A stretch of 37,229 bases of DNA from Acidobacteriota bacterium (GTDB lineage Bacteria > Acidobacteriota > UBA4820 > DSQY01), in NCBI GenBank assembly GCA_021813555.1, contig JAKAKG010000185.1, positions 1 through 37,229 of the forward strand. The letters run 5' to 3'. Positions 1,895 through 25,109 of the stretch are shown here, piece after piece. A program made the position numbers and the translations under genes. The notes beneath the pieces were generated by a model, which was not told the origin of the DNA, made no database searches, and saw nothing but the letters and a program-made list of their open reading frames with translations. The number at the start of each line of letters is the position of its first letter. The first letter of the stretch is position 1.

Positions 1895-4800
1895 ATGGAA
1901 TCGAATCGAACAGGAACCCCTGAGGGGCAGCAGGCCCGCAAGAAGAACGCCTCGTCGGAACCCGGCAAGCTCACCCAGGCGGGCCCGCCTACGGACACGC
2001 AGGCCGCCATGGATCTTACCCATGACGCCCTCGCCCCGTTCCGGCTCGCCAGGCACTTCACCCACCCCGATACGGACCCCATGGACGAGGTGCGGTACGA
2101 GAGGCGCTCCTGCTTCATCCGCAATACGGACGGCTCCGTGGTCTTCGGCCTCGAGAATGCCGAAGTGCCCGAAGATTGGTCCCAGCTCGCCAGCGACATT
2201 CTCATCAGCAAGTACTTCCGAAAGGCCGGCGTCCCGGGAACGGGCCACGAGACGAGCATCCGCCAGGTTATTCACCGGATCTCCCACTCCCTGCGGGTAG
2301 AGGGTGAGCGCCTGGGAAGCTACTTCCAGGACAAAGAAGAGGCCGACACGTTCGAGGCCGAATTGAACCACCTCCTGGTGACCCAGAAAGGAGCCTTCAA
2401 CTCCCCCGTCTGGTTCAATCTCGGCCTTTGGCACGACTACGGCATCGAGGGCTCGGGCGGCGGTTTCGCGTGGAACGCCGCCGCGGACGCCGTCCTTGAA
2501 ACGGCCAACGCCTACCAGCAGCCGCAATGCTCGGCGTGCTTCATCCAGAGCGTGGGCGATGACCTCATGAGCATCTTCCAGCTCGCCAAAAATGAAGCAA
2601 GGCTGTTTAAATATGGCAGCGGAACAGGCTCCAATTTCTCGCGAATCCGCTCAAAGGAGGAGAAGCTTTCCGGTGGAGGTACCTCCTCCGGCCTCATGTC
2701 CTTCCTCGAAGTTCTGGACCGCGCGGCAGGTGCTACCAAGTCAGGCGGAACGACCCGCCGGGCGGCCAAGATGGTCTGCCTGGACATGGACCACCCCGAG
2801 GTGGCCGACTTTATTAACTGGAAGCGCCGCGAGGAAAGCAAGGCTCGGGCCCTGGAAGCGGCGGGAATCGACGTCGAGGACGCGGTGCACACGGTCTCGG
2901 GGCAGAACGCCAACAACTCGGTCCGAGTGACGGACGCGTTCATGGAGGCCTACGATGCGGACCAGGAGTGGAAGACCTTTTTCCGCACCACGGGGGAGGC
3001 CGCCCGGTCCTTCCGCGCGCGGGACCTCATGAGGCAGATCGCACAGGCGGCATGGGAGTGCGGCGATCCGGGCCTCCAGTACGACTCCACCATCAACCGG
3101 TGGCACACCTGCAAGGCCACGGACAAGATCAACGCGAGCAACCCGTGCTCGGAGTACATGTTCCTGGACGATTCGGCGTGCAACCTGGCCAGCCTCAACC
3201 TCATGAAGTTCCTGAATGAAGACGGAAGCTTCGACATTGAAGGGTTCAAGCACGCCGTGGGGATCTTCATCGCCGCCCAGGAAATCCTCGTGGACGCCTC
3301 ATCCTACCCCACCGAGGGCATCGCCAGAAACAGCCACGAATACAGGCCCCTGGGGCTGGGCTACGCCAATCTGGGGACCCTCCTCATGGTCAAGGGTATC
3401 CCTTACGACAGCCCCAAGGCGTCCGCCTGGTGCGGCGCCATCACGAGCCTCATGACGGGCCAGGCCTATGCCATCTCGGCGCTCCTGGCCAAGCGCAAGG
3501 GCGCCTTCGCGGGCTACGCCAAGAACCGCGACTCCATGCTCGAGGTCATCAAGATGCACCGGGACGCGAGCCTCACCGTGGAGGCTCAGCACATCCCCGA
3601 AGATCTGGCCATGGCCAGCCGGCAGGTGTGGGATGACGCGCTCGTCTTCGGCCGGCAGTACGGCTTTCGAAACGCCCAGACCACGGTCCTCGCCCCCACG
3701 GGGACCATCGGCCTCCTCATGGACTGCGACACGACGGGGATCGAGCCCGATTTTTCCCTCGTGAAGTTCAAAAAGCTCGCGGGCGGCGGCTACTTCAAGA
3801 TCGTGAACCAGAGCGTGGAACACGCCCTCCAGGTTCTCGGCTACCCTCCCGCCCAGATCCAGGACATCCTCCGCCACCTCATGGGCAACGGCCAGCTCGC
3901 GGGCGCGCCCCACGTGAACCCCGCCAGCCTCAAGGCCAAGGGGTTCACGGACGAGGACGTGAAAAAGGTGGAGGCCCAGCTCGTCCGCGTCGTGGACCTG
4001 CCCCAAGCCTTCTCGGCCTTCGTGCTGGGCGATGACTGTCTGGCCCGCCTGGGAGTGGACCCCGACGAGGCGCGCAATCCCTCCTTCAACCTCCTCGCCA
4101 CCTTAGGGTTCACGTCTCAGCAGGTGGAGGAGGCCTCTCTCGCCGCCTGCGGCCACATGACTTTGGAAGGGGCACCACACCTCAAGCCCGAGCACCTGCC
4201 CGTTTTCGACTGCGCCAACCGGTGCGGCAAACACGGCAAGCGCTTCATCGCCCCCCTGGCCCATGTGAAAATGATGGCCGCGGCCCAGCCCTTCCTTTCG
4301 GGAGCCATTTCAAAAACCGTCAACCTGCCCGGCAACATCACGCCGGAGGAGATCGAGCGGATCTATGTGGAGGCGTGGAAGCGGGGCGTGAAGGCCCTGG
4401 CCGTGTACAGGGACGGGTCCAAGGTGACCCAGCCCCTGAGCGACGCCTCCACGCAAAAGCAGCCCGAAGCGACCACGTCCCTCGACCTACGCTGGACCCC
4501 CCTCCAGCGCAAGCGCCTCCCGAAAAAGCGCCGCGGGTTCACCCAGGAAGCGAGGGTCGGGGGCCAGAAAGTCTACCTGCGCACGGGCGAATACGAGGAC
4601 GGCAGGCTGGGCGAAGTCTTCATCGATATGCACAAGGAGGGCGCCGCCTTCCGCTCCCTCATGAACTGCTTCGCCATTGCCGTCTCCCTGGGCCTCCAGT
4701 ATGGCGTTCCCCTGGAGGAATACGTGGACTGCTTCACCTTCACCCGGTTCGAGCCGCAGGGACCCGTCACCGACCATCCCAACATCAAATACTCCACCTC

Positions 4801-5131
4801 CGTCATCGATTACATCTTCCGCGTCCTGGGCATGGAATACCTGGGGCGGACCGATTTCGTGCAGGTGAAGCCCGAGGAGCTCATCAAGACGCAGGCCGAA
4901 AAGACTCTCGCCTCCCCCACCGCCAGCGCGAAGGAAGTGGCGGACGCACAGAAAAGCCTCGTCACCACGGGGGTCCCGGTCTTCAAATCGGCGGGCGCCA
5001 ACTCCCTTTCCTCCCACCTCTCCACCATGATGGGCGACGCGCCCTTCTGCAACATCTGCGGCCACATCACGGTGCGCAACGGAAGCTGCTACAAGTGCCT
5101 GAACTGCGGGAACTCACTCGGATGCTCTTGA
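1895..5131 (+). CDS. nrdJ: Vitamin B12-dependent (class II) ribonucleotide reductase
   Basis: 1078 aa; motifs [65 protein letters not shown]-terminal zinc ribbon CNICGH...[14 protein letters not shown]. Confidence 0.95.
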
Positions 5132-5153: not shown

Positions 5154-5461
5154 CAGCCTGCTTAGCAGACTGCTGAGAAAGTCCCGTGGGTCGCGTTGCC
5201 AGCGCCACGGGCCCGGATGCAAGGCGCCGCGACGCCGTCGATGCCTTGCACATCGTCTAGGAGCGGCAACACAGCAGGCGGGCCCGTGCCGCGGCAACCC
5301 CCATCTCCTAAAGAGGCAAATGGGGCGCAAGGGATTGGGGGCCATCTGCGTTGTGGCGGCTCCTAGGAAGGGGGCCCACCCTGCCGTCGTCGCCGCGCCT
5401 AGCATATGGCCCCCAAGCCTCTTGCGCGCGGCCCATGCGAGTTTCTCAACAGCCTGCTTAG
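5154..5461. repeat. Structured intergenic repeat/MITE-like element
   Basis: Imperfect terminal inverted repeat of about 30 bp (AGCAGaCTGcTGAGAAAgTCcCgTGGGtCGCG on the left; reverse complement of the right end is AGCAGgCTGtTGAGAAAcTCgCaTGGGcCGCG); CAGCCTGCTTAG occurs at both ends in direct orientation (5154-5165, 5450-5461); several internal stems. Confidence 0.6.
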
Positions 5462-5473
5462 GGGGAGTTGCAC

Positions 5474-6376
5474 GTGACACCTGCGGCGAAGGACGCGACG
5501 GTCAGGAAGCGCTCTCTTGCCCTCGTGCGCCAGCTCCTCCTGCTGGCGCTGGGAACGCTTTCCTTCGTCGTGGCGGTGAAGGGGCTTATCCTGCCCACGC
5601 ACCTGCTCACGGGGGGCGTCACGGGCGTGGCCCTTCTGCTCAACGCCCTTTTCCACTGGCCCGTGGGGCTCCTGACCTTCCTCTTCAACGTCCCCATTTT
5701 CGTGGCGGGATTCCGGGACGTGGGCCGGAAGTTCGCCTTCTACTCAGGGGCCGCGGTGCTCCTGTTTTCACTTACCGTGGATCACATCCCCGTCCCGACC
5801 TTAACGCACGACCCGTTGCTGGCCGGCATTTTCGGCGGCCTGCTCTCCGGTCTCGGGAGCGCTTGGGCCATTCAGGCGGGCGGATCCCTCGGCGGGTTCG
5901 ACATTCTGGGCGTGGTGCTCAACCGCCGCTTCAGCCTCGGGATGGGCGAAGCCTCGCTCGTGCTCAACGGCGTCCTCGTCCTTGCCTCGGGCCTGCTGGA
6001 CGTGCCGGAGCAGGCCATGTACACCCTCATTTCCATCTACGTGGCCAGCCGGGCCCTCGACACCCTCCTGGCGCCCAGATCCCGCAAGGCCGTCATGATC
6101 GTGTCCAAGGAGAGCCCCGCCATCAAGGAGAGAATCCTCATCCAGATGGCCCGCGGCGTCACCCTCCTGAAGGCCGAGGGTGCCTATACGGGGGAAGCAT
6201 CCAACGTCCTCCTGTGCGTGCTGACGCGCTACGAGCTGAAGGAATTGAAGGAAATCATCCGGGCGGAGGATCCCCAGGCCTTCGTGACCGTCTTCGAGGC
6301 CTCCGACGTCATCGGCCGGTTCAAGCGGCCCACCGCCTTTGACGTCTGGAAGAAGAACCAGAAGCAGACCGCCTGA
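5474..6376 (+). CDS. YitT family (DUF161/DUF2179) membrane protein
   Basis: Hydrophobic N-terminal half with GLILPTHLLTGGVTGVALLLNALF and QAGGSLGGFDILGVVLNRRF, soluble DUF2179-like C-terminus; GTG at 5474 preceded by GGGGGAG (the ORF track starts at TTG 5468). Confidence 0.8.
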   Translation: MTPAAKDATVRKRSLALVRQLLLLALGTLSFVVAVKGLILPTHLLTGGVTGVALLLNALFHWPVGLLTFLFNVPIFVAGFRDVGRKFAFYSGAAVLLFSLTVDHIPVPTLTHDPLLAGIFGGLLSGLGSAWAIQAGGSLGGFDILGVVLNRRFSLGMGEASLVLNGVLVLASGLLDVPEQAMYTLISIYVASRALDTLLAPRSRKAVMIVSKESPAIKERILIQMARGVTLLKAEGAYTGEASNVLLCVLTRYELKELKEIIRAEDPQAFVTVFEASDVIGRFKRPTAFDVWKKNQKQTA

Positions 6377-23438: not shown

Positions 23439-25109
23439 TCAGAGAATTGCGGCGATGCTGAAGTAGAAGGAAACGGGGCCAGGCCGGTGCTGGGGCGCGG
23501 GACGCCCGATGACGGTGCGCGAGGGAGCCAGCGAGGATGGGTCCATGCCTCCGGCGATGCCGTTCCAGGCGATGAACTGCACCGGCGCGCACCCGGGAAC
23601 GCCCACGTCCCAGGAGAGGTGCCCTCCCGTGAGCACTTTCTGCCCCTTCGGGCATAGGCCCTTCAGGCCCAAGTAAGGCTCGGGATTGCCGGGGCCGAAA
23701 GGGTCCAGGTGGCCCCACGCGTCCCACGCGTCGCCCAGATGCACGGGTTCGATGGGATAGAAGATCTCGGGACACGCTTCGTCGGCACCGGGCACCTTCA
23801 GGCCGCATAGGCGCCTGGCGAGGTCAGGGATATGCTCAGCCCTCACCGTAAAGCCCGCGGCACCACTGTGTCCGCCGTACCGCACCAGGAGATCGGAGGC
23901 GTGCCCCAGGAGAGCGGCCACGTTGTCGCCCTTCCAGGCGCGGCCCGAGCCCAACCCCATGTCGCCCTCCACTCCTACCACGAAGGCGCTCTTCTTGAAG
24001 GCCTCCGCCAGGCGCGCGGCCACGGGACCGATGATCCCCTTGTGCCACGAAGACGAGGCGGCGAACACCACGCGGGACGTCTCGGGCAGGAGGCGCGCCT
24101 GCTCCTCCGCCTCCTCATAGGCGACGACCTGCAGGGCCTTTCGCTGCTGGTTCAAGGCCTCAAGCTTGACTTTGAGCCGGGCGGCCAGGCCGGGGTTCCG
24201 CTCCAGCAACAAGTCCAGGACGAGACGCGCGTCTTCCATCCGTCCGGCGGCGTTGAAGCGTGGGGCCAAATGGTAGGAGATGTGATGCCCGCGCACGGGC
24301 CCGGTCTTCAAGACCCCTTCGAGAAGCTGCGCCAGTCCCGGGTTGGGCGTCGTCTCGAGGGCCAAGAATCCCAGCTTGCATATCTTTCTGTTCACGGGAG
24401 TCATGGGAACCACGTCGGCCACGGTGGCGATGGCCACGAGCCTGAGAAAGGGCTCCATGGACAGCGGCTTTCCCAAAACCACCGCCACTCCCCTGAGGAC
24501 CTGCAGGGCCACCGCCGCGCCGCACAGCTCACGGTCCGGATGGCCCTCAACCATCTTGGGGTTCACCAAGATGCACGGGGGCTGCCCCTCGTCCGAGGGA
24601 AGGTGATGATCGCTCACGATGAGATCCACCCCGGCCGCCTGCAGCCGGAGGCCTATTTCCCGCGCGTTGGTGCCGCAATCGGTGGTGAGGACCAGGGAGG
24701 CTCCCGCCTGCCGCACCGCCTCGTAGCTGGCCTCCGAAAGCCCGTAGCCCCCGTCGAATCGGGAGGGAATGAAGGCCTCCACCTTGGCTCCGAAGGAGCG
24801 GAGGCCTCCCACGAGCACGGCCGTTCCCATGAGGCCGTCCACGTCGTAGTCGCCGTGGACGATGATCTGTTCCTGCCTTGCAAGGCCCTCGGCCAGACGC
24901 CGCGCCGCGGCCTCCAACCCCGGAATGCGGAAGGGGTCGGGCCATGCCACCCCGTCTGGAACCAGAAAGGCGGACAGCTCGTCGTCGGAGCGCGGCGAGG
25001 CGCTCAGGAGCATGGCCAGAACGGGCGAAATGCCGTGTCGCGCCGCGATGGCCGCGGCCCGATCCTCCCACCCGGACGCCTCCACCCAGGCCGCACCGTT
25101 CACGGGCAC
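23439..25109 (-). CDS. recJ: Single-stranded-DNA-specific exonuclease RecJ
   Basis: IIVHGDYDVDGLMGTAVLVGGLRSFG...VLTTDCGTNAREIG...LIVSDHHLPSD (DHH); RYGGHSGAAGFTVR (DHHA1). Confidence 0.9.
   Translation of the reverse strand: MPVNGAAWVEASGWEDRAAAIAARHGISPVLAMLLSASPRSDDELSAFLVPDGVAWPDPFRIPGLEAAARRLAEGLARQEQIIVHGDYDVDGLMGTAVLVGGLRSFGAKVEAFIPSRFDGGYGLSEASYEAVRQAGASLVLTTDCGTNAREIGLRLQAAGVDLIVSDHHLPSDEGQPPCILVNPKMVEGHPDRELCGAAVALQVLRGVAVVLGKPLSMEPFLRLVAIATVADVVPMTPVNRKICKLGFLALETTPNPGLAQLLEGVLKTGPVRGHHISYHLAPRFNAAGRMEDARLVLDLLLERNPGLAARLKVKLEALNQQRKALQVVAYEEAEEQARLLPETSRVVFAASSSWHKGIIGPVAARLAEAFKKSAFVVGVEGDMGLGSGRAWKGDNVAALLGHASDLLVRYGGHSGAAGFTVRAEHIPDLARRLCGLKVPGADEACPEIFYPIEPVHLGDAWDAWGHLDPFGPGNPEPYLGLKGLCPKGQKVLTGGHLSWDVGVPGCAPVQFIAWNGIAGGMDPSSLAPSRTVIGRPAPQHRPGPVSFYFSIAAIL

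Follow-up and report, generated by a model that had tools for sequence, protein, structure and literature searches.

Between nrdJ and a yitT-family gene, an Acidobacteriota bacterium carries a non-coding block of about 0.3 kb, read in the initial annotation as either a non-autonomous mobile repeat or a structured RNA. The locus raises the questions of whether this block is mobile DNA, what moves it, and what its symmetrical interior might do. The window (the whole stretch of DNA analysed, 37,229 nt) is contig C35 of the host genome, here named G000.

Extent and mobility of the element

That the block at positions 5166-5456 is a real mobile DNA element is well supported. Its ends were set by a multicopy alignment and by empty sites in G001, a genome of the same genus that is ∼94% identical. 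They delimit 291 bp (no strand assigned) instead of the 5154-5461 first proposed, and the CTTAG sequences on either side (5161-5165 and 5457-5461, also unstranded) are the target-site duplication. The left CTTAG corresponds to a single copy, CATAG, at the empty site (G001:C388); the right one was recognised by comparison with the empty site of G001. Repeat analysis identified the terminal inverted repeats CAGACTGCTGAGAAAGTC (5166-5183, + strand) and CAGGCTGTTGAGAAACTC (5439-5456, read on the − strand), and comparison with IS5-family elements showed ends of the same type. The terminal repeats of the element in its own genome are CAGGCTGYTGARAAACTC, and the target is YTAR/CTAG. The imperfect inverted repeat noticed earlier at the outer ends was recovered (35 nt, 80%; 5161-5195/5427-5461). 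A 12-mer described at both ends is also present, but it is composed of the CTTAG duplication plus CAGCCTG, and the empty site in G001 shows that the left-hand CAGCCTG was part of the target before insertion. With a length below 500 bp, terminal inverted repeats, a target duplication, empty sites, dispersed copies and no transposase gene, the element is a MITE; inspection of the open reading frames of the window revealed no credible one confined to it. The target sequence, CAGCCTGC[A/T]TAG in G001 and here (window positions 5154-5165), resembles the terminus of an earlier copy; the element may have inserted beside such a relic.

A search of the 3.3 Mb of G000 (235 contigs) returned 31 matches to the element. 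Six, the window copy included, were near-complete and 91-100% identical; the others were truncated, lay at contig ends, or were 49-bp miniature forms (minis). Target duplications read CTAG/CTAG at the copy on C187, TTAG/TTAG on C112 and CTTAG/CTTAG in the window. Empty sites were sought by joining the flanks across copies and running them against the family (seven loci, in a query that extended to base 4740). G001 proved empty, with a contiguous match and one target copy each, at the window locus, at C187, at C112 and at a 49-bp mini on C137, while the mini on C184 was present in both genomes alike. At the window locus, G001 reads GCGCAGCCTGCATAGGGGGAGTCGCACGTGAC (also given as CAGCCTGCATAG), the empty junction that the initial annotation had suggested looking for. 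The insertion of the window copy is recent. It separates a close gene pair: the distance from the nrdJ stop codon to the yitT GTG is 45 nt in the empty G001 and 342 nt in the window. The GTG start is preferred since an upstream TTG is TCG in G001. Pfam confirmed both neighbours as previously named: nrdJ on the left, outside the element (1895-5131, + strand; class II, B12-dependent ribonucleotide reductase; PF02867, PF08471), and the yitT-family membrane protein gene on the right (5474-6376, + strand; PF02588).

The minis of G000 (C137:7658-7706, L027; C184:7205-7253, L028; C176:29832-29880, L026) belong to a class of palindromes, 49-51 bp long, that consist of nothing but the two terminal repeats. 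In the genome G004 many mini pairs occur, in copy numbers comparable to those of the full element there (pairs counted by eye). Such forms are either mobile as such or the product of arm loss. An armless 49-bp form sits at a locus where G001 has an empty site, so transposition may not require the arms, unless they were lost after those copies had inserted. Several draft contigs end inside copies (G000:C20:39413-39665, G000:C164:2821-3070, G001:C79:1-164 and G001:C60:1-166), so the element is one cause of assembly breaks. The flank of the copy on C126 (L010, query 1719-1762) contains a short repeat of the GATGAGGGGATGCC type, which is found at many loci in G000, G001, G003 and G006; it is separate from the element, dispersed and partly tandem.

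The two-arm interior

The element folds far better than expected by chance (z = −9.0 as RNA and −6.8 as DNA; none of 200 shuffles folded as well in either case). Its interior consists of two long, imperfect hairpins of the same type in inverted orientation, separated by a linker with a small hairpin in the fold prediction (5299-5324, no strand assigned). Arm A (5194-5298, + strand), with the core GATGCAAGGCG..GACG..CGATG/CATCG..AGGAG..CAAC, scored 108.9 bits (E 1.3e-24) against a covariance model whose training set includes this very sequence; arm B (5325-5428, − strand) scored 69.2 bits (E 1.3e-14). With no more than two B arms to train on, the model still recovered A and B together in about two dozen elements. 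All the stems listed in the initial annotation are present, and they differ in standing. Those formed by TTGGGGGCCAT/ATGGCCCCCAA (5335-5345/5406-5416) and GCGCAAG/CTTGCGC (5325-5331/5421-5427) are part of the conserved arm B, while the hairpins CCCGTGG/CCACGGG (5183-5189/5205-5211) and TGCAAGGC/GCCTTGCA (5218-5225/5243-5250) are alternatives to arm A that the conserved fold does not include. A weak covariance match at window positions 24635-24749 lies inside a long open reading frame, by eye presumably recJ-like, and was treated as chance.

An alignment of 28 diverse arms (26 A, 2 B) showed near-invariant segments (GATGC, AGGCG, GACG, CGATG/CATCG, AGGAG, CAACG and GCAGAT) separated by stems that change in pairs. 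In the resulting structure 94.7% of cells were paired, and changes on both sides were seen in 14 of the 19 pairs. The covariation score was 0.478, against 0.132 ± 0.017 for shuffled alignments in a control that leaves some relatedness among the arms in (none of 500 reached 0.478), and slid structures scored 0.093 at most. RNAalifold reported further paired changes, A-U/G-C at columns 22-95 and C-G/G-C at columns 40-76. Conserved GA steps face each other at columns 38-39 and 77-78 and, in most arms, at columns 23-24 and 93-94 (column 94 is G in the host's own genus); from their sequence, they would fit tandem G-A pairs.

This signal is evidence for a folded single strand of some kind, and the same covariation would be expected of a single-stranded DNA fold. 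On the arm strand, G-T mismatches exceeded A-C mismatches modestly (20:9 in representatives, 61:38 in 125 arms), which weakly favours RNA, although G-T is also better tolerated in DNA. In a tree of arms, A and B separated without exception (21 against 21, support 0.854); mean identity was 73.6% among A arms, 61.9% among B arms and 54.3% between the A and B arms of one element. Given that A and B are separate clades, the two-arm plan must be older than its spread over families, and the arms have not been homogenised. Palindrome self-correction could account for some of the covariation in the stems, but it would not preserve the same mismatched loops. No credible Rfam match was found at the element at gathering or permissive thresholds, and a consensus scan found no promoter-like or terminator-like site. 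The structured-RNA reading first offered is thus upheld as regards the fold, with its strongly covarying stems and conserved internal loops; the arms may act as RNA or as single-stranded DNA, or be inactive. Each observation that had been named in advance as speaking against the element (a single copy, no homologues, no covariation) was contradicted.

Probable helper transposase and proposed mode of action

Profile searches of G000, a fragmented draft, found no DDE_Tnp_1, DDE_5 or DUF772 domain. No full IS5 partner was found in G000 or in G004, which has many copies of the element; both are drafts, so these absences weigh little. G001 contained a transposase fragment, 96% identical, that begins at a contig end, and drafts lose repeated insertion sequences. 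In G006, of the same family, an IS5-family element of 1328 bp (NCBIfam NF033581) was found with ends CAGGATGTTGAAAA and CAGGCCGTTGAAAA (15/18 and 13/18 matches to the MITE end), flanks CTAG and TTAG, and one stop in the transposase frame. Its transposase protein, used as a query against 396 genomes of the phylum, identified more complete elements. One end of that in G079, CAGGCTGCTGAAAAACTC, is identical to the MITE end (18/18), and its duplication is CTAA/CTAA; those in G230 and G368 have similar CAGG ends and CTAG/CTAG, and those in G326 and G294 have GAGCTTGCTGAA ends with CTAG or CTAA duplications. IS5-family elements prefer YTAR targets, and the use of such targets by this subgroup is directly visible at these loci. 

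The element therefore has its terminal repeat type and its CTAG/CTAA-type target duplications in common with IS5-family insertion sequences (NF033581, transpos_IS5_4), which indicates an IS5-family helper acting in trans. Only the outer 20-22 bp align, however; the element lacks a transposase, and what lies inside it is unrelated to these insertion sequences, so its origin as a simple internal deletion derivative was rejected. Judging from the ends and target, the transposase that moved the window copy was probably of the IS5 family, and the earlier suggestion of a non-autonomous mobile repeat is well supported: there are multiple copies, a duplicated target and empty sites at four loci, and complete IS5-family insertion sequences have terminal repeats in common with the element. 

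An IS701 (DDE_5) helper was rejected, as none of 14 genomes had a DDE_5 transposase. Type B terminal repeats, sought in G029, G038 and G060 as pairs 1-2.5 kb apart that could signal an autonomous copy, gave none that was convincing. In G060 two separate elements with type B ends ∼2 kb apart lie on either side of an IS200-like Y1 gene that contains a stop (C580:115-2337, L172), probably by coincidence, since three other Y1 loci checked in that genome have no elements beside them. The same genome contains an IS1182-family transposase (574 aa, NF033551; C299, L261:120-2193) in an element of ∼2.07 kb with ends AGATCCATCCGGAAA and CTAG/CTAG, showing that the same target is used here by elements of the IS1182 type. 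A viral contig (L252) terminates in CTAGGAGCCTGTCCGAGTAAT and, after it, an open frame that by eye begins like an IS1182 transposase; those 21 residues had no Pfam match, and the contig is a lead only. Plasmids and phages gave no match to the element, and viral contigs none to the core motif.

We consider it very likely that the element is a MITE inserted between nrdJ and yitT, mobilised by a trans-acting IS5-family transposase and enclosing an old two-arm cassette that does not derive from an insertion sequence. The DDE transposase would recognise the CAGGCTG-type ends and insert at YTAR/CTAG-like sites, duplicating 4-5 bp. As the arms are inverted, a transcript or single DNA strand made from either direction would display one arm in the conserved sense, and the arms would act as folded single strands. 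For their role we tentatively prefer, at less than even odds, that a structured RNA domain in read-through transcripts may lead to processing or insulation of host mRNA and so make insertions tolerable. 

The arms might instead work as single-stranded DNA hairpins or as a cruciform, in replication, transposition or the binding of a host protein. This is possible but doubtful. In its favour, covarying stems and conserved loops are compatible with any single strand that folds, the fold computed as DNA is likewise much better than chance, and the inverted design suits either replication direction; against it, the substrates of DDE transposases are double-stranded ends, minis occur that have no arms, and the G-T excess leans towards RNA. 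Long quasi-palindromes are known to self-correct, and a MITE moves on its ends alone; the interior could then be a functionless passenger whose stems are kept paired by template switching. Such correction should erase the identical mismatched internal loops that persist across families while stems vary, and would hardly leave A and B arms as distinct, non-homogenised clades, which makes the passenger improbable.

Two further explanations fare worse. A riboswitch-like, cis-regulatory leader of nrdJ-yitT would account for a highly structured sequence directly upstream of the yitT ribosome-binding site, but it is refuted by the empty junction in G001, and with copies at many unrelated loci and no Rfam family its probability is negligible. 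A REP/REPIN-type palindrome dispersed by a RAYT (Y1) transposase is also a very improbable reading, despite the element's palindromic, intergenic nature, its 49-bp forms and the Y1 genes of its own genome. G029, a genome rated complete, has dozens of ends and no Y1 gene, the Y1 genes of the host's genus are not flanked by ends, and the ends match IS5. REP/REPIN-RAYT systems resemble the element as dispersed palindromes that need a trans-acting enzyme, but differ in using a Y1 enzyme, in lacking the target duplication seen here, and in their GTAG/CGTC tags (PMC3733652, PMC3116915).

Two other known systems can be likened to the element by description only. The Correia/NEMIS elements of Neisseria are also short, with terminal repeats and a stable stem-loop that occurs in transcripts and for which RNase III processing has been proposed; they differ in having TA-type ends and a single long stem formed from both ends, and belong to another phylum (passages in PMC2229807). 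The Caulobacter CIR element, similar in architecture alone, has two long hairpin arms and a linker, and conservation of its fold across genera has been described; it differs in its GANTC motif and its bacterial hosts, and the passages on CIR in PMC2229807 mention no exchange of terminal repeats. A limited search of open-access papers found no earlier description of such elements in Acidobacteria.

Distribution and possible exchange of ends

In genomes of other families only the interior is in common, and the ends differ. A degenerate core pattern run over GTDB returned 106 stretches; among the matches listed, nearly all were Acidobacteriota drafts, with others labelled Planctomycetota, Deltaproteobacteria and Gemmatimonadetes. 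Most of these genomes are drafts, many of them metagenome bins, so their taxonomic labels and the absence of partners are weak evidence. A pattern match in Paracoccus (L113) had no support from the profile or the covariance model and was judged chance. One draft labelled Planctomycetota also carries structured elements; there, two Acido-Lenti-1 RNAs (Rfam RF01687) lie on opposite strands (L063:1616-1659 and 1762-1811).

The elements that could be delimited are ∼170-320 bp long and have many end types, with borders that are mostly CTAG or CTTAG/CTAAG; in some, the left and right borders are inverted and not direct, and duplications are less certain than in the host's genus. At least five end types surround the same interior in a single genome (nzgw75, G060). 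In the interior tree, end type B appears in three places and type F in two, a pattern that suggests exchange of ends around the interior, although support is weak at several of the deeper nodes and the ends may instead have converged. The recurrence of an end type in separate places of the tree, and the variety within one genome, would be in line with a more speculative proposal, which we put forward as possible but by no means probable: that the pair of hairpin arms forms an independent genetic entity, a module of folded RNA or single-stranded DNA whose age would explain its presence across families of Acidobacteriota, and that this module repeatedly adopts the terminal repeats of different resident insertion sequences and moves on as its helpers change.

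In practical terms, the element marks repeats at which draft genomes of this group break up. The usual account of a bacterial MITE makes it the remnant of a single insertion sequence, whose middle does not matter; in this element the conserved part is the middle and the interchangeable part is the ends. If this is true, the arms would add a structured nucleic-acid motif that is new, is backed by covariation and lends itself to tests of its role, and the family would offer a test system in which to study how non-coding parasites stay mobile by taking up new helper transposases.
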